A DNA stretch of 64,000 nucleotides, taken from the NCBI GenBank assembly GCA_016286055.1, contig JAEERW010000001.1, positions 388,189 to 452,188 of the forward strand, written 5' to 3'. The position numbers and the translations under genes are program-made. The notes below the pieces were generated by a model. That model ran no database searches. It was not told the DNA's origin and worked only from the letters and a program-made list of their open reading frames with translations. The first letter of the stretch is position 1. Every line of letters starts with the position of its first letter. Below are positions 3,883-56,560 of the stretch, piece by piece. This DNA comes from Bacteroidales bacterium (lineage in GTDB: Bacteria; Bacteroidota; Bacteroidia; Bacteroidales; UBA3824).

Positions 3883-3965
3883 AGAAAATATGTATAAGGT
3901 TTGACGAAAATTAGAAAAAAAATCGATTTTTGTTGTAAATTTATCACCGAATAAAACTAATAAAA

Positions 3966-4310
3966 ATGAAAGCACGATTATTTATTATGTCAGTTTCAGC
4001 CTCTGCAATGATGCTGGCAGGATGCTCTACCGTGAAAATCGGGAACATAAATTCGCAGCCTTTCCGTTACCACGAAGACGCTGTTACTATTAAGGGACAT
4101 GTAGTAAACACCACCAACCTTTTTGTGGTAAAAACTTTTAAAGTGGCCGACAAGAGCGGAGAAATTACCGTGGTTGCCGATGAAAGCCGTACAGTGTTGC
4201 CTCCAGTAGGTCAGAAAGTTAAGGTTAGCGGCAAGGTGTACGAGGCCTTTAAATTAGGTTCGCTGCAAAAGATTGTGGTGGTAGAGGGTGTGGCCCCGCT
4301 AAAAAAATAG
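3966..4310 (+). CDS. Small lipoprotein with OB-fold-like domain
   Basis: 114 residues. The N-terminus is a lipoprotein signal with lipobox LAGC (Cys20). The mature part of about 95 residues is beta-rich, with VTIKGHVVNTTNLFVVKTF and EITVVADE segments that resemble small OB-fold nucleic-acid or ligand binders (tRNA_anti-like / BOF type). This is a judgement on pattern only. It is probably held at the periplasmic membrane face. The gene is divergent from the ATPase gene and convergent with the TPR kinase gene 20 bp away. Confidence 0.7.
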   Translation: MKARLFIMSVSASAMMLAGCSTVKIGNINSQPFRYHEDAVTIKGHVVNTTNLFVVKTFKVADKSGEITVVADESRTVLPPVGQKVKVSGKVYEAFKLGSLQKIVVVEGVAPLKK

Positions 4311-4330
4311 TGCGGTTATCTACGGCTTGC

Positions 4331-7300
4331 TTATTTGGTAAGTTCTATGATGTAGCTTTCTACCTTGCGCAGGGCAAAGGTAATGGAGTTGATGTCGAAG
4401 TTTTTGATGGAGTGGATAATGCTCGTGGCCATGGTTGCGGCTTTGTCCATCTGGTGCTGTTGTGCCTTTTCTTTGAAGCTTTCGGCAAAATTTAACAGAC
4501 CTTCGAACGAGATGTTCTTTTTGAGCTGGCGGTATTCGGGGATGATTTGCTCTTTTAGCAGTGCTACAAACTCGCGCTGCGATTCGTCTTTCTTTTTGCT
4601 CGACGATGTGGCGGCTATGTCTATAATGTCTTTTGCCTCGTCGCTGTTGGTGTTGTAAATGCTTAAATCTTTGATTGTTACTGTAAATGTAGAGCCTTGA
4701 CCTATAGAACTGTCGATGGTGATGGTGCCTTTGAGGTTTTCTACAAGACGTGCTGTCAGCTCCATTCCAGTAGAGCGGTTAATCTTTTCGCCGATGGCAA
4801 AAATGGTGTCGGTTTGCTGTTTCGATAGTCCTACGCCAGTGTCAGACACAGTAATAATCAGTGTGGTGTGGTTGTTTGAGGTGTCCATAGCAGCCACATG
4901 AAGCCTTACGCTACCCGAGTCGGTAAATTTGATGGCGTTGCTTACAAGGTTAAAGAGTATCTGTCTGAGTTTTACACCGTCGGCAATTAAGAGTTTTGGA
5001 ACGTCGGAAGCCACATCGAGAGTGTATTTGAGGTTTTTCTCTTCGGCGTTTTGCTTAAAGATGTTGAAAATGTCGTCGGCAATTTGTCTTGGGTCGGCAA
5101 TGCGGGTGTAAAGGTTTTTGCCAGATTCTATTCGTGCGAGATTCCAAATTTCTGTAAGTGTTTCGTGTACCGAAACAGCGTCTTTGAGTATTCCAGTGGC
5201 CTTTGCAGCAGTTTCGGGCTGTGCGGTGTTGGCAGAAAGGTTTTCGGCAGATACAATTATATTTTCAATCGGCTGCTTTGTGTTTTGTGTCATGTTGAGC
5301 AGTAGCTCGCTTTTTGCCTTGGATGCGGTACTAATGTCGCTGTTGTTTCCTATGTTTCTTATGGCAGGAATGTCGCGAATTGTCATAAGCACGGTGTTGT
5401 TGTGGCTGTGAGCAAAGCGTGCTTCTAAATATTTTCCATCTTTTTGATACTCAACATATTGTGGGTCGTCGCTGTTTTGCGCCTCGTTGAATGCCACAAG
5501 AAATTGTAGTAGCAAGTCGGCGTCAAATTTGTCGCGCATATTTCGACCAATATATTGTTTTTCGGCATCTGCGTCGCCTGGAATTTTGGCATAGGTGAAG
5601 GTGCCGTTTTGGTCAATGCTGAAAATGGTTTCGGGTAGGATATTGAGGATTGAAGATTGTTTTTGTGATAGTTGCGATGCGTTTTCTTCTGCTATTTTGC
5701 GGTCGGTGATGTCTTCCACAATCATAATTCCGCCCTTTTCAACCTCTCTGCCGGTGTTGTAATGGTATGGCTTGAGTGTGATTGAGGCGTATACCTTGCC
5801 ATTGTCGGTGTGGATTTCGTATTCTTGCTTAGATGTTTTGTCGTTTTGGCTTGAATGCTCAGAAGATATGTCGAATCCCCGCAACACCTCTTGTGGAACC
5901 ACAGTTGTAATGTCTTGTCCAGTCAGGTTTTTGTTCTTGAGGTTAAAAATCTGCGCAATGCGTTCATTGGCGGTGGTTATCTTGAAGTTGTCGTTGAACT
6001 GGATAATGCCGATAGGGGTTTTGCGGAATAGCAGACGGTATTTTTCTTCGCTGTTGCGTAGCTCGGCTTCGGCAAGTTTGCGTTCTTGGATTTCGATTTG
6101 CATTCGCTGGTTTGATTCTGACAGCTGCTTGTTGTGGTTGTTTTTTTCTTTGTAGCGGAAATAGTAGATGGCCACTACCACAAACACTAACAGTATCACA
6201 ACAATGAGGAAGATAATGTTTCGGTTGTTTTGCTTACGTTCAAGGTTAAACTTGTCGCGTTCTGCCTGATATTGGATAGCTTCGATTTCTTTTTGCTGTT
6301 TTTGGTTTTCGAGGCTGACTTGAAATTCTGAAAACTGCTCCTTTTTCTTTTGTTCAAAAATGCTGTCGGAAGTTTCAGCGTAGCGTTCGCTATAAAAAAG
6401 AGCTTTGTCGAATTGTCCGTGGCGTTTGAAAAAAGTTCGCAGAATGTCGCATGACTTGTTTTTTATGCGGAGTTCAGAAATACCAGTGTTCATCTCCTCC
6501 ATTTCGGCATCGTGAAGCACAGCTTCTGCGTTGATTCTGGCTTGTTCGTCCATTTTGTAGTCTATCTGCAACGATGCCAATCTAGTGCGTGCAACGAGAG
6601 ATTCGTGCTGTCGGCCTGCTTTTGCGTAATGTTCGTAAGCTGATTTGAGCCATTCGGCGGCTTTTTCAGCATTGTCGTCGGTGAGGTATACGTAGGCGTA
6701 GGTCTCCATAGTGTTGGCTAGGCCAAAAATATCTTTTTTCTGCTGATATTGATCAAGGCAGGTTTCAAGAATTTCCATGGCACTATCTTGCTCGTTGATA
6801 ATGGCGTATGCTTGTGCGATTTTGATATTGGTTTCAAGTATTTTGTCAACGGCTTCGAGATCTTCGTATAGGGTGCGAGCGGCTATAAGGTTTTTGAGTG
6901 CGTCGTCTTCATCGTTTTTGATGGTAATGTCGCCTAGGAGTGTAAGCGCAGTGGCTTGAATGTTTGGATATTTGTATTGACGGCATATTTCAATAGCCTT
7001 TGAACAGTATTCTTCGGCGAGGTCGTATGCCTCTTGGGCGTAGTATGTGCGGGCTATGTCGATTTGACAGAGAGCCATCTTGTCGTTTTGGTTGAATTTG
7101 GCGTATATTTCGTAAGCCTTAAACTGTGCTTCGATAGCAAGGTAGTAAACACGTGTTTTGTAGTATCCAAAACCAATGTTTTTGTATGCTGTGGCAATAT
7201 TCGCAGAGTCAGACGATTGTTCCGCGATTTGCTTTGCTTGTGCTGCGAACTCAAGAGCCACAAAGGGTTCTGTGTTGATATATTCGTTGTATTGCTCGGT

Positions 7301-7405
7301 AAGCGACTTGTATTGCTCGGCAAGCGAGTCGGTTTGAGCCTTGGCCTGCCCCACAAGCAACATCAATGTTATTGCCAATATGTATGCTAATGTTTGTTTC
7401 ATCAT
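4331..7405 (-). CDS. TPR-PAS histidine-kinase-like protein without the phospho-acceptor His
   Basis: 1024 residues. Signal peptide (1-23), periplasmic TPR repeats (about 30-350), a coiled coil, one membrane helix (about 397-415), two PAS domains (about 450-570 and 580-690), a HisKA-like helical pair, a HATPase_c domain and a C-terminal helical bundle resembling Hpt (about 930-1024) without an obvious Hpt His. In the H-box, where kinases have His-Glu, it reads NMTQNTKQP: the His is Gln707. The ATPase N-box (LFNLVSNAIKFT) and DTGVG are kept, but the G2 loop is GMELTA rather than GLGL. It is therefore probably a sensing pseudokinase. Its start overlaps the preceding kinase gene by 4 bp, which implies translational coupling. 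Confidence 0.88.
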   Translation of the reverse strand: MMKQTLAYILAITLMLLVGQAKAQTDSLAEQYKSLTEQYNEYINTEPFVALEFAAQAKQIAEQSSDSANIATAYKNIGFGYYKTRVYYLAIEAQFKAYEIYAKFNQNDKMALCQIDIARTYYAQEAYDLAEEYCSKAIEICRQYKYPNIQATALTLLGDITIKNDEDDALKNLIAARTLYEDLEAVDKILETNIKIAQAYAIINEQDSAMEILETCLDQYQQKKDIFGLANTMETYAYVYLTDDNAEKAAEWLKSAYEHYAKAGRQHESLVARTRLASLQIDYKMDEQARINAEAVLHDAEMEEMNTGISELRIKNKSCDILRTFFKRHGQFDKALFYSERYAETSDSIFEQKKKEQFSEFQVSLENQKQQKEIEAIQYQAERDKFNLERKQNNRNIIFLIVVILLVFVVVAIYYFRYKEKNNHNKQLSESNQRMQIEIQERKLAEAELRNSEEKYRLLFRKTPIGIIQFNDNFKITTANERIAQIFNLKNKNLTGQDITTVVPQEVLRGFDISSEHSSQNDKTSKQEYEIHTDNGKVYASITLKPYHYNTGREVEKGGIMIVEDITDRKIAEENASQLSQKQSSILNILPETIFSIDQNGTFTYAKIPGDADAEKQYIGRNMRDKFDADLLLQFLVAFNEAQNSDDPQYVEYQKDGKYLEARFAHSHNNTVLMTIRDIPAIRNIGNNSDISTASKAKSELLLNMTQNTKQPIENIIVSAENLSANTAQPETAAKATGILKDAVSVHETLTEIWNLARIESGKNLYTRIADPRQIADDIFNIFKQNAEEKNLKYTLDVASDVPKLLIADGVKLRQILFNLVSNAIKFTDSGSVRLHVAAMDTSNNHTTLIITVSDTGVGLSKQQTDTIFAIGEKINRSTGMELTARLVENLKGTITIDSSIGQGSTFTVTIKDLSIYNTNSDEAKDIIDIAATSSSKKKDESQREFVALLKEQIIPEYRQLKKNISFEGLLNFAESFKEKAQQHQMDKAATMATSIIHSIKNFDINSITFALRKVESYIIELTK

Positions 7406-9438
7406 AATATATTGTTTTGCTGCAACAGTCCTGCTTTTTGGTACGGTATATAAAAGGTGAAAGTGGTTCCTACGTTTTGTTTTGATTTTACTTCGATTCT
7501 TCCGCCCATTCGTTTTACAAGTTCGTTTGCGATAGACAGCCCGAGTCCGTTGCCTCCGTACTGTCGCGCTGCGCCTTCGTCGCCTTGGCGGAATTTTTCA
7601 AAAATTACGCTCAGCTTGTCTTCTGGTATTCCAATTCCAGTGTCGCTTACATAGAAAGCTGTGTCGGCTGGGGTGTCGCCCTGAGCTGGTACTATGCGAG
7701 CTCCGATCGAAATTTTACCTTCGTTTGTGAAGGTTACAGCGTTTGTTATCAGTTTTTTGAATATCTGGTTGATGCACATTGAGTCGGCGTATACCAAACT
7801 GTCGAGGTCTTCGGCGGGCTTGTTTTTTTCAGTTTTGATGTTTTTGCCCGATTCGCCAATAAGCTGGTTGAGGTACGATGCCGATTCTTCCACTATGCTG
7901 TTGATACTGCATATTTCGTGCCTTAGTTTTTTCTGTCCGGTTTCTATCATGGATAGTTCCACGATGTCGTCGATGATGCCTAAAAGTTTTTTGCAGTTGG
8001 TGTTGATAAGGTTGAGATAGTCTTTGTGTTTTTCGGTCGACATGCCGTTTTGTATCATTTGCACAAATCCGTTGATAATGTTAGCTGGTGTGCGTGTTTC
8101 GTGGGCAATGTTGGCAAGGAATACGGTTTTGAGCCTGTTAGATTCTTCGGCTTTCTTTTTCTGTCCGAGTAGTTCGGTTTGGTAACGTTTGATTTCGGTA
8201 ATGTCGTTGGATATTATCTGTATAACCTTTTCGCCAAAAAAGTCGTTGATAGGCTGCATGGTGCTGAGGTACCAACGTTCTTCACCATTGATGGTTACAC
8301 AGGTTTTGCGTGTTTGTGTAACGCCCGTTTCAGATATTTTTTTGATGAGCTCAAGGTCGATGAGCTGCGATGCTGGCACGTTGTCGCCTGATGAGATTTC
8401 TTTGTCGTCTTCTTCAAAGAGTTCCACCGCGGTGCTGTTGAGCATTATGATGTTGCCTTCGGTGTCTACCACTATTATTGGTTGACTGATGCCGTTGAAA
8501 AGAGTTTTGTAGCGGGTTTCGCTTTCGGCTAATTCGCGGCGTGCTTTTATCATGCGGTCAATATCCTGCATAACACCAAGGATGCCAGCAAATTCGCCGT
8601 CGCTGTTTTTGATGAGGGTTTTGTTTACGATATACTCTCTCACAGTGCCGTCGGCGCACTTGATGGGTCCTTGGTATATCTGAATTCCCTTGTCTTTGAT
8701 AAGCTGGATGTCTTTTTCTTGGTAAAAGTCGGCGTATTCTTTTGGAAAGAAGTTTTCGAGTTGGAGAGCGGTACGTCCTATAATGGTGTCGGGAGAAACA
8801 CCGAGCACGTTGGTGGCGTAGCTCTTGTTGCAAAGTATGTAGCGTCCTTCCATGTCTTTGCAGAACACTGGAGTTGGAAGAGCGTCGAGCATCATTTGAG
8901 TGAGGCTAAGACTTTGTCGTATGCGGCTTTCTGATTCAACGTTGATGTCGGTGTTTTGGAAAGTGGCAATGAAAGAGCCCTTAGCAGTGGCGAAAGCCGA
9001 CACGATGTAGGAGTAGTTGCCGTCGTGAATAGTGCCAGAGCTTTGGTTTCCGGCTTCTGCGGCTTGCGCCAAGAGTGGCAACCATGCATCTTTAGAGAGT
9101 ACACCCGAAAGCGAGGCTTTGCGTCCTATAATAGATTCGGGTCTCTGCTTGGCAAAATTTAAGAAAACAGGGTTTGCTTTTTTTATAATAAAATCGTTTG
9201 GCAAACCTTTGTCGTCGTAAATGATGTCGCCGGCAAATGCAGCCGTGAGCATGTTGTCAAAAATGCGCGAATTTACCTCCTCGGCATATCGGAGTTGTTT
9301 TGAAAGGTCGGCTTCAAGGTTGTTGAACTTGCCGTATTCGCCAAATATAAGATAACGCCGCAGCATAGTTCTAAGTGTGGCGTTTTCTTCTTTGAGGCGT
9401 TTGTACTCGGATATGTCGATGGTTTCGTTGTCGGTCAT
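7402..9438 (-). CDS. Cytoplasmic PAS-domain sensor histidine kinase
   Basis: 678 residues with no membrane segment. A short N-terminal coiled coil is followed by a degenerate PAS (about 55-165), two clearer PAS domains (about 180-295 and 305-415), HisKA with the intact H-box NIAHETRTP (His446), and HATPase_c with DTGIGIP and GNGLGLSI. It should autophosphorylate on His446. No receiver domain or adjacent response regulator is present. It lies between the SiaC-like gene (6 bp away) and the TPR pseudokinase gene (4-bp overlap). An active kinase coupled to a kinase-dead partner suggests a heteromeric sensor; that is an inference. Confidence 0.9.
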   Translation of the reverse strand: MTDNETIDISEYKRLKEENATLRTMLRRYLIFGEYGKFNNLEADLSKQLRYAEEVNSRIFDNMLTAAFAGDIIYDDKGLPNDFIIKKANPVFLNFAKQRPESIIGRKASLSGVLSKDAWLPLLAQAAEAGNQSSGTIHDGNYSYIVSAFATAKGSFIATFQNTDINVESESRIRQSLSLTQMMLDALPTPVFCKDMEGRYILCNKSYATNVLGVSPDTIIGRTALQLENFFPKEYADFYQEKDIQLIKDKGIQIYQGPIKCADGTVREYIVNKTLIKNSDGEFAGILGVMQDIDRMIKARRELAESETRYKTLFNGISQPIIVVDTEGNIIMLNSTAVELFEEDDKEISSGDNVPASQLIDLELIKKISETGVTQTRKTCVTINGEERWYLSTMQPINDFFGEKVIQIISNDITEIKRYQTELLGQKKKAEESNRLKTVFLANIAHETRTPANIINGFVQMIQNGMSTEKHKDYLNLINTNCKKLLGIIDDIVELSMIETGQKKLRHEICSINSIVEESASYLNQLIGESGKNIKTEKNKPAEDLDSLVYADSMCINQIFKKLITNAVTFTNEGKISIGARIVPAQGDTPADTAFYVSDTGIGIPEDKLSVIFEKFRQGDEGAARQYGGNGLGLSIANELVKRMGGRIEVKSKQNVGTTFTFYIPYQKAGLLQQNNIL

Positions 9439-9444
9439 TTGTTG

Positions 9445-9819
9445 TTACTCTATTTCAACGAGTTCGAAAGGCACGTTGACGAGTTTTTTGTAGCGGTTTC
9501 CGAGTGCTTTCATATCTTCGTCGATCGACTCGTAGTACCACCTTACCTTAACGTCACTTTTTTCGGCCACTTTTTGTAGCGAGAGGATTACCTGAATAAC
9601 CTGTTTGCTTGAGGCGGTGTTTACATATTCGAGGTCGAAATCAAATACAGTCTGTACGTTTGGATTTTCGGCGTATGTCTTGATCCATTCGAGAACGGGC
9701 TTGTAAAAGTCGAGCGCGTTTTCAGGTACTGAGATTTTGGATATCTTAAATATGTTTTGCTCGGGGTCTAAGATGATTTCCGGCGTGTCTTCTGTTTCTT
9801 CAATTATTAATTTTTCCAT
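9445..9819 (-). CDS. siaC: SiaC-family phosphoprotein (DUF1987)
   Basis: 124 residues, the whole length of the SiaC/DUF1987 family. The family motif YVNTASSK is present and its Thr is residue 68, the same number as the threonine phosphorylated in Pseudomonas aeruginosa SiaC. There SiaB phosphorylates SiaC, the PP2C phosphatase SiaA removes the phosphate, and the unphosphorylated form binds the diguanylate cyclase SiaD. The gene is 15 bp after the tandem SiaB gene. No GGDEF protein lies in this window, so the downstream partner here is unknown. Confidence 0.88.
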   Translation of the reverse strand: MEKLIIEETEDTPEIILDPEQNIFKISKISVPENALDFYKPVLEWIKTYAENPNVQTVFDFDLEYVNTASSKQVIQVILSLQKVAEKSDVKVRWYYESIDEDMKALGNRYKKLVNVPFELVEIE

Positions 9820-9834
9820 TTTGCTTAGGTGTTG

Positions 9835-10995
9835 TTAATTCTTAATTGTTACTGCTGTCTGTAATATGTAGAACTGCTGGGCTTCGTTGATGTTCATAAA
9901 GCGGTATTTGAGCGGACGGTCGCTCTTGATACGCAGGTCGGAGAATCCGAGGCCAGTTTTTTTTGCGTCGGCAGTGTCGAAGTCGAGAAGAATGTCGTCG
10001 TAATAGTCGCTCAATTCGTCTTTTGACATGCCGTTGACAAATTCGAGACGTTCGGAAATGATGTCTTTTGCTTCGTTTTTGATAATGTTGCCCGAAGTAA
10101 GCATTATTTCTTTGCCTGTCTGTCCCATAAAGAACACTCCCGAAACACCTGCGGATGTGGATGTGCGACGGTCGCCGTGCTTGATTATGTTTTGGAGCAT
10201 CTCTACCATTACGTTCGACACTTTGATGGTGGTTAGGGGCATATTCATGCGTCCCTTGATAATGGCTAATAGGCTTAACAGGTTCTCTTGGTTGAAGAAT
10301 CCGTTGAAATAGAGCAGAAGGTTTTCGTTGTTCATCTGCTTGTGTAGTTGCTTGACACTGTCGAGCGAGCTGTGTCCTTTGGTGTTTTGTCCGTCGGGGT
10401 CGGTGTTTCCGTAGTTTTTGTCGTTGGGAATCAGAGTCTGCAGGTAGAAGTATGTGTACTCGTTGTCTAATTGTTCAAAACTATAAAGTAGTTTGTTGCC
10501 CGATTTGCGGCTCATTTCGATAAGTCCGAGACCAGCTCCGCCTTTGTCGCTCATGCTGCCTGTGGTGAGCATTTCGCGGTGAAACTTTTTTAGTTCGTCG
10601 GGGTTGAGGCTATTGATGGTGTCGAGCTTTTCTTTTAATGCTGGTATGTTTTCGTTAGCCACAATGTTGCCTGTGGATATGTAGTATCGCTCGCCGTTTT
10701 TTTGGATGGCAAATATTCCTGGGTATTTTTCTGTGTTGAGGTTTGCTATCTCGTCTTGGTGTCGGGTTATGTTTTGCAGGCCTTCTACCATTATGTAGTA
10801 GATGCGTTTTTGCAATGTCTGCTGTGATGTTACTTTTGAGATGTTAGTGTCGGCGAGGAACAATATCTTTTTGGTGATATTGTGAGAGAAGTATCCCCGG
10901 TAGACGTATTCAAAGTCGTCGTTAGATATCCTTTGAAATAGAGGATATGCTATGTCGAATAATTTTGAACCGAGTTCTGGTGTCATAGGCTTCAT
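9835..10995 (-). CDS. siaB: Tandem SiaB-family protein kinase (two DUF6272 domains)
   Basis: 386 residues made of two copies of the SiaB kinase fold, a GHKL-type ATP-binding domain. The first (about 1-190) has the N-box EGLQNITRHQ (Asn75) and the glycine loop KGGAGLGL (151-158). The second (about 210-386) has EMLQNIIKHGD (Asn269) and a weaker loop KKTGLGF (345-351). SiaB proteins are usually one domain of about 180 residues, so this is an internal duplication. It should phosphorylate the SiaC product encoded next to it. The weaker loop suggests the second copy may be regulatory. It lies 94 bp after ftsZ on the same strand. Confidence 0.85.
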   Translation of the reverse strand: MKPMTPELGSKLFDIAYPLFQRISNDDFEYVYRGYFSHNITKKILFLADTNISKVTSQQTLQKRIYYIMVEGLQNITRHQDEIANLNTEKYPGIFAIQKNGERYYISTGNIVANENIPALKEKLDTINSLNPDELKKFHREMLTTGSMSDKGGAGLGLIEMSRKSGNKLLYSFEQLDNEYTYFYLQTLIPNDKNYGNTDPDGQNTKGHSSLDSVKQLHKQMNNENLLLYFNGFFNQENLLSLLAIIKGRMNMPLTTIKVSNVMVEMLQNIIKHGDRRTSTSAGVSGVFFMGQTGKEIMLTSGNIIKNEAKDIISERLEFVNGMSKDELSDYYDDILLDFDTADAKKTGLGFSDLRIKSDRPLKYRFMNINEAQQFYILQTAVTIKN

Positions 10996-11088
10996 TTGTT
11001 ATAATTTAGTTTACCGCTTTTTAGTGCAATAAAAGTGCCATTGTTGGCTCTTTTGCCGGGGCTGTTACTTATTTTTGTGTTAATAATA

Positions 11089-12429
11089 CTACTCTTCTGC
11101 AAGTGGGAAACGCTTGGCGTCTTTTGGTACGTCGAACGAAAGCTTGATACCTTTGCGCTCGTAGGCTGGCGTGTTTTCCATCTCTTCCAAGTTTTGTATT
11201 TCAGCAAAATTGATTTTTTGAAATTTGCTTTGGATTACAGCTTCGGATATTGTTTCGCTTTCGTTGTCATCGTTGATGTTGTCGGAGTCGTCACCACCAA
11301 GATCTACAGTGTTGCCTATTGATACGGTAGCGTCTTCGGTTTTGTTGTCGCCGCCTTCGGCTTTTGCAGTATCGGGGTTGTTGAGGTGACGTAAAACGTT
11401 TGAAGAAGATGGCCGCTCGTACGGGTTTAGTATTTCGGTTTTGTCGAATCCAGTGGCTACGAGTGTTACACAAATTTTGGTGCCGAGGTTTTCGTCTTTG
11501 GTTTGACCCCAGATGAGGTTGCCGCCTTCGCCAGCCTGTCCTGCGGTGGCTTGTACGTATTCGTTGATGTCGGTAACTTCGTCGAGGGTGGGCTCGTGTT
11601 CAGATGATGATATGATGTTTACGAGCATGTTTTTTGCACCACGTATGTCGCTGTTGTTGAGCAATGGCGAGTTGAGGGCTGCTTTGATGGCATTGATAGC
11701 ACGGTCTTCGCCATCGGCCTCGCCGCGACCCATTAGCGCTACTCCGCTGTTTTCCATTACGGCTTTAACGTCGGCAAAGTCAACGTTGATTTCGCCGGGC
11801 ACCGTGATTATTTCTGCGATGCCTTTGGCTGCCATGGTTAATATGTCATCGGCTTTGGAGAATGCCTGACGTGCTGGCATGTTGCCGTACATTTCGCGGA
11901 TTTTTTCGTTGTCGATAACGAGCATGGCATCAACGCTTTCCGAAAGTTGCTCTAATCCAGTGAGAGCCTGTTTTACTCGTTTGGGACCTTCGTATCTGAA
12001 TGGTATTGTAACGATTGCCACGGTAAGTATGCCCATCTCTTTGGCAGTTTTGGCAATGATTGGCGCAGCACCTGTTCCTGTGCCGCCGCCCATTCCCGCA
12101 GTCACGAACAACATTTTTGTGTCGTTGTCGAGGGCTTTTTTTATTTTTTCTATGCTTTCGATGGCGGCTTGCTTACCGTTTTCGGGGTTGTTGCCAGCTC
12201 CAAGACCTTCGGTAAGTCTTTCACCGAGAGCTACTTTTACAGGTATAGGACTTGCCTGGAGCGCTTGCTGGTCGGTGTTGGCTAGTATGAAATCAACATC
12301 GTGGATGCCGTAGTTGTACATATAGCTAGCAGCGTTGCCTCCGCCTCCGCCTACACCTATTACTTTTATTATGTTTTTCTTGGTGTCCATTTCGAAACCA
12401 AGAAGGTCTTCGTCTATTTCTGGGGTCAT
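11089..12429 (-). CDS. ftsZ: Cell division GTPase FtsZ
   Basis: 446 residues. The tubulin signature GGGTGTG is at 114-120, preceded by GVGGGGGNA (25-33), and the T7-loop region follows VPGEINVDFADVKAVM. After the globular part (to about 335) comes an acidic linker and a conserved tail PAYERKGIKL, the peptide that binds FtsA in Bacteroidetes. It polymerises into the Z ring at midcell. It is the last dcw gene, 32 bp after ftsA. Confidence 0.98.
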   Translation of the reverse strand: MTPEIDEDLLGFEMDTKKNIIKVIGVGGGGGNAASYMYNYGIHDVDFILANTDQQALQASPIPVKVALGERLTEGLGAGNNPENGKQAAIESIEKIKKALDNDTKMLFVTAGMGGGTGTGAAPIIAKTAKEMGILTVAIVTIPFRYEGPKRVKQALTGLEQLSESVDAMLVIDNEKIREMYGNMPARQAFSKADDILTMAAKGIAEIITVPGEINVDFADVKAVMENSGVALMGRGEADGEDRAINAIKAALNSPLLNNSDIRGAKNMLVNIISSSEHEPTLDEVTDINEYVQATAGQAGEGGNLIWGQTKDENLGTKICVTLVATGFDKTEILNPYERPSSSNVLRHLNNPDTAKAEGGDNKTEDATVSIGNTVDLGGDDSDNINDDNESETISEAVIQSKFQKINFAEIQNLEEMENTPAYERKGIKLSFDVPKDAKRFPLAEE

Positions 12430-12461
12430 AATTGTTTTCCTTATTAAGTTAGTTTTTTAAG

Positions 12462-13808
12462 TTACATTTTGCTGTCGTCGGGCTCGGTAAACAGCTTGTT
12501 GGCAATAGATTTGATTAATCCACGGAAACCTCCAGAGCTTTCTTTGCCGTTGTTGGCTTTTGGGTCTTTGCCGTTTTTTGCACCTTTGGCATCGGTGGCG
12601 CTGCTTGATGCGCCGCCTTCTTTTTGCTGTTCTTCGGCCTTTTCTTGTTCGGCTTTTTTGCGCTGACGTGCGATAATGTCTTCGGTGTACTCCATGCCTT
12701 TGATTATAAGGCCTATGGCAGTAGCGTAACATTCCGACGCATATTCTGGACCTGTGTATAGCGGAGTGCCGGTGCGGGCTTCGATGGCGAGACTAAATTT
12801 GGCGAGCTGAAGCAAGTTTTTGAGTTTTGCGGTGCCTCCTGTAATTACAAGTCCGCCGTTGATAGCAGTGTTTTTCCTTACGGCGTCTATCTCGTAGGCA
12901 ATGCCACCGAGTATCTCTTCTGCTCTTGCGCTGATGATTGTAGCTATGGTAGAGATTGGTATCTCTTTGTTTTTGCCATTTACACCTTTAATTATAACAG
13001 CTTTTTTGGCGAAGTCTTTTTGCAAGAGGGCTGCACCGTGCTGAATTTTGATTTGTTCGGCTTGACGTTCGAGAACACCGCAGCCTTTTTTAATGTCGTT
13101 GGTAATGGCCTTTCCTCCAATGGGGATTACGCCGGTGTATCGCAGTATGTTGTCTTGGAATACGGCTATGTCGGCGGTGCCGGCACCTATGTCGGCGAGT
13201 GCTACACCAATCTCTTTTTCGTCTTTTGACAATACTGCCTCAGCCGAAGCAAGAGGTTCGAGTATGAGTTTGATTATTTTTAAGCCTGCCATCTCCACAG
13301 CTTGCTTGATGTTGTTGACGGCTTTTTCTTTGCCTTTAACCACGTAGAAAGTGCCTTCGAGCTTGCGCCCGTTGTAGCCTTTTGGGTTGATGCCTACAGG
13401 AGCGTTGTCGACCGAATATCCTTGTGGAATTACGTGTATGATGTTTTCGCCCTGACCTGCCGAAATCTGATAAAGCTCTTCGGTAAGCTGGTTGATGTCT
13501 TGGTCGGTGATGATGTTGCTGATGATTTTGGAATGACTGTTGACCTCACCGCTGATGTTGCGGCCGTCGATGCCCACGTACACGTTTTTGAAAAGCACGT
13601 TTGATGCTTTTTCGCATTTTTGTACGGCTTCTCTAACAGATGCGCTTGCAAGCACAATGTTTTGTACAGTGCCTCTGATCACTCCTTTCGTTTCGGCTTC
13701 GCCTATTCCGAGTATCATTATTTTTCCTTGTTCGTCTTTGGTGCCGGCTATGGCCACCGTTTTCGACGTGCCAATGTCGATGGCTGCGATAATGTTTTTA
13801 CACGGCAT
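12462..13808 (-). CDS. ftsA: Cell division protein FtsA
   Basis: 448 residues, an actin-fold ATPase that tethers FtsZ to the membrane. It opens with the phosphate-1 motif AAIDIGTSKTVAIAG, has ADIGAGTADIAVF in the middle and VITGGTAKL later. After a charged, alanine- and serine-rich linker it ends with an amphipathic helix (GFRGLIKSIANKLF), the membrane-targeting sequence. It lies between ftsQ (49 bp upstream) and ftsZ. Confidence 0.97.
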   Translation of the reverse strand: MPCKNIIAAIDIGTSKTVAIAGTKDEQGKIMILGIGEAETKGVIRGTVQNIVLASASVREAVQKCEKASNVLFKNVYVGIDGRNISGEVNSHSKIISNIITDQDINQLTEELYQISAGQGENIIHVIPQGYSVDNAPVGINPKGYNGRKLEGTFYVVKGKEKAVNNIKQAVEMAGLKIIKLILEPLASAEAVLSKDEKEIGVALADIGAGTADIAVFQDNILRYTGVIPIGGKAITNDIKKGCGVLERQAEQIKIQHGAALLQKDFAKKAVIIKGVNGKNKEIPISTIATIISARAEEILGGIAYEIDAVRKNTAINGGLVITGGTAKLKNLLQLAKFSLAIEARTGTPLYTGPEYASECYATAIGLIIKGMEYTEDIIARQRKKAEQEKAEEQQKEGGASSSATDAKGAKNGKDPKANNGKESSGGFRGLIKSIANKLFTEPDDSKM

Positions 13809-55627: not shown

Positions 55628-56560
55628 ATGCAGGGGTTTCTCATTATCGTTATTGGTGTTTTGGTGTTGTCGCTTGTGGCGGTGCTTATGTTTATGCTCC
55701 GCAAAATCAAGCGTATAAATGCTGAATTGCAACGCCAAAAAAACGAGATTGAGCAACAAAAGAACCTTATTGAGCAAAAAAACTGCGAAATTACCGACTC
55801 CATCAACTATGCCCGAAAAATTCAGGACAATATACTCCTGCCCGAAACCAAGTTGAAACAATGGTTGCCGCAGATGTTTATCTACTTTAAACCCAAAGAT
55901 ATTGTCAGCGGCGATTTTTATTGGTTTTCAAAGTTTGAGAATAAATATGTGATTACCGCCATCGATTGCACGGGTCACGGAGTGCCGGGTGCGTTCCTCT
56001 CGATGGTAGGCAACACTCTCTTGCACGAGATTGTGAATATCAAGCACGTTTTCAAGCCCGATGTGATTCTTACCATGCTCCACACCGGCATCCGCCTTGC
56101 TCTAAATCAAAGCAACGAGGATTCCGACAGCGAAGATGGTATGGATATGAGCCTCTGCACCGTAGATGCCAAACTGCACCGTTTTCAGTTTGCCGGAGCC
56201 AAAAACAACCTCTATGTGGTGCAGGGCGACAAACTTAAAATCCTCAAAGCCAATTACTACTCAATAGGCGGACGTCAGTTGCGCCCCGATATGCAGATAG
56301 AGTTCACTTGCTACGACTTTATGTACGACGACAACACCTCTATTTATATGTTCTCCGATGGCTACCTCGACCAGTTTGGCGGCGACAACAATGAGAAATT
56401 CAACACGCAGCGTTTTCGCGAGATGATTCTCAACAACCGAAACCTGCCAATGGAACAGCAGAAGACGGTGCTTGCTGAAACTATGGACAAGTGGAAGGGT
56501 GAACGCCAACAAATAGACGATTTCCTAGTGTTGGGTGTAAAACTTGCTGATTTACAATAA
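55628..56560 (+). CDS. Membrane-anchored SpoIIE/PP2C-type phosphatase
   Basis: 310 residues: membrane helix (about 4-24), coiled coil (about 28-58), then a PP2C-like SpoIIE domain with metal-site motifs SGDFYW, DCTGHGVPGAFLSMVG, SDGYLDQFGG and the final QIDDFLVLGV. This is the domain of P. aeruginosa SiaA, which dephosphorylates SiaC. It is therefore the best candidate in the window for the phosphatase of the SiaB/SiaC switch at 9.4-11 kb. It has no HAMP domain and no periplasmic sensor. Confidence 0.88.
   Translation: MQGFLIIVIGVLVLSLVAVLMFMLRKIKRINAELQRQKNEIEQQKNLIEQKNCEITDSINYARKIQDNILLPETKLKQWLPQMFIYFKPKDIVSGDFYWFSKFENKYVITAIDCTGHGVPGAFLSMVGNTLLHEIVNIKHVFKPDVILTMLHTGIRLALNQSNEDSDSEDGMDMSLCTVDAKLHRFQFAGAKNNLYVVQGDKLKILKANYYSIGGRQLRPDMQIEFTCYDFMYDDNTSIYMFSDGYLDQFGGDNNEKFNTQRFREMILNNRNLPMEQQKTVLAETMDKWKGERQQIDDFLVLGVKLADLQ

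Follow-up and report, generated by a model that had tools for sequence, protein, structure and literature searches.

In Pseudomonas aeruginosa, SiaC is phosphorylated at Thr68 by SiaB and dephosphorylated by SiaA (PMC7647112), and the described target of SiaC is the Pseudomonas cyclase SiaD (literature including PMC7647112). The siaABCD genes of this bacterium are a predicted target of FleQ, an RpoN-interacting regulator (PMC8125075), which we take only as a lead. Sigma-54 regulation has been predicted for genes of Bacteroidota (PMC12316311); the main text of that paper holds no occurrence of SiaB, and SiaC was not looked for there. A search of open-access text on the SiaB/SiaC family names returned a single paper, on Pseudomonas, and among the open-access titles listed in wider searches, with most texts judged by title, none reports siaBC behind ftsZ. 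Here we analyse siaB and siaC (together siaBC) in a 64-kb stretch of DNA from a Bacteroidales bacterium (the window: the whole 64,000 nucleotides, contig JAEERW010000001.1 of assembly GCA_016286055.1, positions 388,189 to 452,188), where they lie directly behind ftsZ. The gap between ftsZ and siaB holds a conserved sigma-54 promoter, identified from sequence, and we consider it likely that siaBC is a sigma-54-induced SiaB/SiaC partner-switching unit which has its own promoter, is fixed behind ftsZ in its genus and acts on a target other than cyclic di-GMP (c-di-GMP) signalling.

Results

A sequence-only reading of the window had described the gap between ftsZ and siaB as 94 bp long and devoid of a TTTG/TAnnTTTG promoter and of a terminator. 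The gap measures 93 bp (10996-11088) and does lack a TAnnTTTG motif and any minus-strand terminator called by a scanning tool, but a perfect sigma-54 -24/-12 site at 11025-11040 had been overlooked. Although this element, TGGCACTTTTATTGCA, is the sole exact match to the sigma-54 consensus in the window, 0.28 such matches are expected per 64 kb and 23 of 100 shuffles contain at least one, so the lone match proves little; it is its conservation that is rare. We aligned the gap from 16 loci, namely the window and 15 relatives whose contig extends to ftsZ. The gaps range from 51 to 151 bp, with several species as short as 51-60 bp, and are otherwise divergent; the element is present in all 16, with 15 of its 16 columns invariant, when approximately dinucleotide-preserving shuffling predicts 0.007 gaps with the element per set of 16. 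In nine of these loci it starts 2-11 bp beyond the ftsZ stop codon, and throughout the alignment its GG and GC stand at the exact sigma-54 spacing and in sense orientation, with the start codon 28-72 bp downstream. Across our family sample of 18 genomes, all of one genus of uncultured gut Bacteroidales, the form TGGCA[CT]TTTTATTGCA lies between ftsZ and siaB in every genome (G000-G016 are among the matches listed, and G017, locus L024, comes from the strict-pattern search described below). The more general TGGCAY-N5-TTGCW, with GG and GC in register, likewise describes the window element and one in each of the 18 genomes, and the bases and spacing are those of the sigma-54 consensus quoted in PMC12316311. 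The features of the locus are as follows.

11089..12429, minus strand: ftsZ (Pfam Tubulin and FtsZ_C), the upstream neighbour, which ends a murC-ftsQ-ftsA-ftsZ run
11025..11040, minus strand: predicted sigma-54 (-24/-12) promoter TGGCACTTTTATTGCA, an exact consensus match 29 bp before the siaB start codon
9835..10995, minus strand: siaB, 386 residues, two GHKL-type SiaB domains in tandem (DUF6272 twice, SiaB_fam_kinase)
9445..9819, minus strand: siaC, 124 residues, STAS-like phosphoprotein (PF09345, E=1e-34)
9616..9618, minus strand: codon for SiaC Thr68, the counterpart in alignment of the T68 that is phosphorylated in P. aeruginosa SiaC (numbering and codon coordinates counted by hand)
9439..9444, minus strand: siaC-kinase junction, 6 bp
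7402..9438, minus strand: PAS-PAS histidine kinase (HisKA, HATPase_c, PAS), catalytic motifs intact
4331..7405, minus strand: TPR-PAS pseudokinase (TPR_12, PAS, HATPase_c, no HisKA), H to Q and a degenerate G2 box

Pfam and NCBIfam bear out the gene order of the sequence-only reading: ftsZ, tandem SiaB, SiaC, PAS histidine kinase and TPR pseudokinase, all on the minus strand. Upstream of ftsZ, Pfam recognises ftsA and a Mur ligase; the ftsQ label was given from position and by eye, with no Pfam match to FtsQ. Apart from the predicted promoter, the gap shows little. A candidate RNA structure was set aside (z-score 0.23), Rfam at gathering score gave no match in 3900-13000, and a looser hairpin scan returned one weak hairpin in the window's gap, overlapping the promoter, and none in the 10 relatives scanned; a minus-strand terminator in the gap was rejected. 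Elsewhere in the window, two adjacent proteins with FGE-sulfatase (SUMF1-like) domains are encoded at 415-2156 on the minus strand.

Comparison with relatives, which the sequence-only reading had proposed as a check, found siaB immediately behind ftsZ in all 18 genomes, with FtsZ identity falling to about 50-56%. The search tables detect SiaB in all 18 genomes and FtsZ in 17 at the threshold used, and show both genes together on one contig and one strand in 15. A sixteenth genome (G011, locus L010) carries the 3' end of FtsZ on its siaB contig, and in G002 and G006 the siaB contig begins inside the 3' end of ftsZ, the bases before the element translating to the FtsZ tail. Beyond the genus we sampled 295 genomes from the order, of which 27 have SiaB at E<=1e-90, three of these belonging to this genus. 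Among the 30 SiaB loci returned, ftsZ precedes siaB in the three that belong to this genus and in none of the 27 from other genera (available upstream sequence of about 1.5 kb in 24 and of 294-841 bp in three). The linkage of siaBC to ftsZ is real and was observed in this genus alone. Of the seven orthologues from other families at 58-64% identity, four carry in the 350 bp ahead of the gene a sigma-54-like site with no more than one mismatch, reading [CT]GGCATTTT[TA]ATTGCT, and have no ftsZ nearby. Since these orthologues keep the site without ftsZ, the promoter may predate the move behind ftsZ; the order of loss and gain is not readable from these loci alone.

The window's SiaB scores 242.7 against a cut-off of 85 for the NCBIfam SiaB family protein kinase, and it falls below the equivalog cut-offs of Pseudomonas SiaABCD, as does SiaC (94.3 against 225 bits for SiaB, 76.7 against 150 bits for SiaC). 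Both SiaB domains keep the catalytic Glu and the N-box Asn, and domain 2 has an altered G2 box. Of the 86 tandem proteins in the set, 83 read GGAGLGL in domain 1, and in domain 2 a variant of the type K[KE]xGLG prevails. The AlphaFold model of SiaB (predicted local distance difference test score, pLDDT, 80.5) finds its best Protein Data Bank (PDB) match in SiaB of the SiaB-SiaC complex 6kko, with a template modelling (TM) score of 0.84 on the target; Foldseek gave E<=0.001 for 2 of 456 listed matches. In an alignment that includes the 6kko SiaC, Thr68 of the window's SiaC aligns with the Thr of P. aeruginosa LLYLNTSSIK.

The window's genome (G000) contains 16 SiaC matches, 16 SiaB domains in 11 proteins and 46 SpoIIE matches. 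All 16 SiaC paralogues carry Thr (12) or Ser (4) at the T68 position. A GGDEF domain (PF00990) was found in none of the 18 genomes, whereas a control search matched in 8 of 14 genomes, and c-di-GMP output was rejected on this count. Because no GGDEF domain was found, a SiaD-type output cannot apply to SiaC here. Several other Sia loci in this genome deserve mention. Some Sia genes are grouped as phosphatase-SiaB-SiaC (L115) and others lie beside unrelated genes, for example of the UbiD family. On contig C3, three siaC and two single-domain siaB genes stand in a row (L110, 7259-9760), the SiaB G2 box being unusual (GNIGL); a tandem SiaB on the same contig (G000:C3:23523-24599; L109, 8047-9858) has no SiaC in the 14-kb stretch read and is followed by a methyl-accepting chemotaxis protein. 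On contig C5 a single-domain SiaB lies near a chemotaxis-like set (STAS, CheY, CheA, CheW and CheR by eye; L120, 7054-7683 and 9393-13653). Within the window itself, 55628-56560 on the plus strand encodes a SpoIIE phosphatase with, by eye, an N-terminal membrane anchor and a coiled coil, a possible candidate partner.

The machinery for sigma-54 transcription is present: Sigma54_DBD was found in 15 of the 18 genomes, including that of the window, which has seven PF00158 matches, three of them strong. One strong activator is of the response-regulator type, with receiver, AAA and lid domains, the motif GSFTGA and no helix-turn-helix detected (L122, 4859-6106; G000:C22); another, on contig 13, combines AAA and HTH_8 without a receiver and also carries GSFTGA; the third has receiver, AAA and HTH_8 domains and no GAFTGA-like motif by the pattern used. 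The first of these is a candidate for acting without an upstream site.

A strict pattern with an AT spacer (TTGGCAYWWWWWTTGCW) gave 24 matches over the 18 genomes, the reversed control giving 8, and all 24 precede a gene. Thirteen lie before ftsZ-linked siaB (one locus being counted twice, on two contigs), six before an operon of PKD/CHU_C and PorP_SprF-OmpA genes, four before a unit of a 141-residue gene and siaC, and one before an ADP-ribosylglycohydrolase-like gene; the siaB site of the window itself, whose first letter is A, is not one of the 24. We then read 20 further regions that had been chosen for a match to the loose pattern TGGCAYNNNNNTTGCW. Eight hold the PorP-type operon, seven the 141-residue-gene-siaC unit (three with the site between the two genes) and one an actin-like gene. 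Matches at the 141-residue-gene-siaC unit have other spacers (AAAAA, AAATA, AAGAT) and unchanged -24 and -12 boxes.

In the window's genome, a sigma-54 site stands before PKD/CHU_C and PorP_SprF-OmpA genes (L115, 15094-15109; G000:C35:143093-143108), and this arrangement with its site recurs in 8 further genomes, in regions chosen because they matched. Another precedes the siaC that follows a 141-residue gene without a Pfam match (L116, 7538-7553). A second sigma-54-like site, TTGGAATGATTTTTGCA, lies before the 141-residue gene itself, where four other species have a strict site. Sigma-54-like sites in two relatives precede an ADP-ribosylglycohydrolase-like gene (weak Pfam match; L209, 1501-1517) and an actin-like gene (L173, 1507-1522). 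Upstream of the other tandem siaB paralogues, a scan of 231 genes gave sites with one or two mismatches, such as TGGCACGGTAAATGCA before the C22 paralogue and before its relative L076; we do not claim these, as in several relatives, by eye, the -12 box is degraded and TAnnTTTG-like motifs are close by.

On the downstream side, the sequence-only reading was right about both kinases and wrong to join them with siaBC in a four-gene module. The PAS histidine kinase is of the active type, with intact H, N, G1 and G2 boxes (HETRTP, ITNA, DTGIGI, GNGLGL), and the TPR-PAS protein has a degenerate kinase core, in which Q at residue 707 replaces H and the G2 box is reduced to GMEL. Alignment of the window's TPR-PAS protein with four relatives 84-97% identical to it (L010 was left out) shows Q707 invariant in all five and a G2 box of GMEL or GTEL, and on this ground we regard the protein as a maintained pseudokinase. 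The pair follows siaC in only 6 of 16 loci (the window and L009-L013). The 10 remaining ftsZ-linked loci, each with 3.5 kb or more of sequence past siaC, do not have it; the next neighbours of siaC elsewhere include rpsL and fusA (L015), an outer-membrane barrel (L022) and a transposase-like gene (L017). The kinase pair is thus best read as a lineage-specific addition. In L010-L013 the siaC-kinase gap contains a GC-rich terminator-like hairpin and a TAnnTTTG motif, and the window and L009 lack about 110 bp comprising exactly that segment. More generally, 11 of 15 relatives have a terminator-like hairpin in the 300 bp that follow siaC, where shuffled sequence predicts 1.65; L009, L014, L020 and L022 showed none in that stretch. 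With the hairpin and TAnnTTTG segment gone, the kinases of the window's species have probably been brought under the siaBC promoter recently.

Discussion

The conserved predicted promoter, the hairpin that follows siaC in 11 of 15 relatives and the four orthologues of other families that keep a sigma-54-like site without ftsZ together make siaBC look like a transcription unit of its own, which is probably turned on by a separate signal and not merely transcribed along with the division genes. An activator of the enhancer-binding type would allow sigma-54 polymerase to transcribe siaBC. SiaB would then phosphorylate SiaC at Thr68, with domain 1 as the catalytic domain and domain 2 specialised or regulatory, and a SpoIIE-type phosphatase encoded elsewhere would reverse the reaction. 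One of the two phosphorylation forms of SiaC would bind and control a target that is no diguanylate cyclase. A deletion appears to have joined the downstream histidine kinases to this unit in the window's species and in one close relative; four other species have what looks like a separate promoter for the pair.

The sequence-only reading had inferred that read-through from the division and cell-wall (dcw) operon could transcribe siaBC and the kinases and so tie them to division or wall synthesis. Its linkage to ftsZ held in all 18 genomes, but its premise of a gap without a promoter failed. Since no terminator was found between ftsZ and siaB, either by the tool or in the 10 relatives scanned, and several species have a gap of only 51-60 bp, transcripts may run on from ftsZ, and such read-through could act together with the sigma-54 promoter without being needed. 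As the main driver of siaBC expression it seems unlikely to us, given the conserved promoter within the gap, the orthologues of other genera that are not near ftsZ, and a kinase pair that 10 of 16 loci lack and that a terminator and TAnnTTTG split from siaC in four of the remaining six. The conserved 16-mer might instead be the binding site of something else, for example a repressor operator. No activator site was found, the spacer TTTTA is conserved beyond what sigma-54 needs, and some of the more distant loci keep, by eye, GGCA-like blocks with a degraded -12 box. Against this, GG and GC keep the exact sigma-54 spacing on the sense strand, 28-72 bp ahead of the start codon, the matches at the 141-residue-gene-siaC unit have the same -24 and -12 boxes around different spacers, and rpoN is present; we hold this alternative to be quite improbable.

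A chance neighbourhood, in which siaBC landed behind ftsZ once in the ancestor of the genus and stayed without any link to division, is compatible with a sigma-54-induced switch and is, in our estimate, somewhat more probable than its opposite. The linkage is confined to one genus, the 16 SiaC genes of the same genome are scattered beside varied genes, and the siaBC orthologues of other genera have other neighbours. Against chance, the ftsZ side is unbroken in 18 genomes whereas the downstream side varies between the kinase pair, a barrel, a transposase-like gene and rpsL-fusA; this is weak evidence, as breaking the dcw cluster could itself carry a cost. At the other extreme, the Sia proteins of this genus might form a large phosphoswitch network without c-di-GMP, in which sigma-54 selectively induces a few nodes, the ftsZ-linked siaBC and a second siaC unit, together with the PKD/PorP_SprF operon for surface or secretion functions, and the ftsZ-linked SiaC gates that surface programme against septation. 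In that event siaC would be kept next to ftsZ as the surface programme and septation must be balanced, a scheme that we regard as speculative and improbable.

Several observations weigh against siaBC being a sigma-54-induced partner-switching unit. No SpoIIE/PP2C phosphatase (SiaA) lies beside siaBC, and no cognate partner could be assigned among the 46 SpoIIE matches of the genome. Sigma54_DBD was not found in three of the 18 genomes (61, 64 and 92% complete). The loose pattern shows no genome-wide excess, with 168 matches against 160 for the control summed over the 18 genomes and 10 against 13 in the window's genome, and four of the 20 regions chosen by it have matches at the end of an FGE-type gene (L165, L166) or before unrelated genes (L170, L171). 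In the other three of the seven orthologues (58-64% identity) and in each of the 20 more distant loci, the 350 bp ahead of siaB gave no site within one mismatch. Synonymous codon identity across 14 ftsZ genes is not raised at the 3' end, and no activator-binding site was found there.

The 16 SiaC matches in a genome of this genus carry a wider implication: as no GGDEF domain was found in the genus, SiaC must act on something else. The small strict set of sigma-54 sites, with two SiaC loci and the PorP/SprF operon, offers concrete candidates for what the switch serves. For annotation, scanning Bacteroidales gaps for TTTG/TAnnTTTG alone overlooks sigma-54 promoters.

How, then, does this locus compare with known systems? 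Its promoter element is canonical in its -24/-12 form, as are the sigma-54 promoters of Bacteroidota. With the partner switches SpoIIAB/SpoIIAA and RsbW/RsbV it shares a kinase fold, at weak similarity (Foldseek 1tid at E of about 0.009 and 6m37 at about 0.03), and the presence of SpoIIE-type phosphatases in the genome, whereas the sequence families differ (PF19788, PF09345) and SiaC is not known to have a sigma-factor target. The nearest relative is SiaABCD of P. aeruginosa, with which the window shares a SiaB kinase and SiaC, the conserved SiaC Thr68 and the catalytic-site Glu of SiaB, and which provides the best structural match, 6kko. Here, in contrast, SiaB is a tandem fusion, neither SiaA nor SiaD is adjacent, GGDEF was found in none of the 18 genomes, and siaBC stands behind ftsZ with a predicted sigma-54 promoter of its own.

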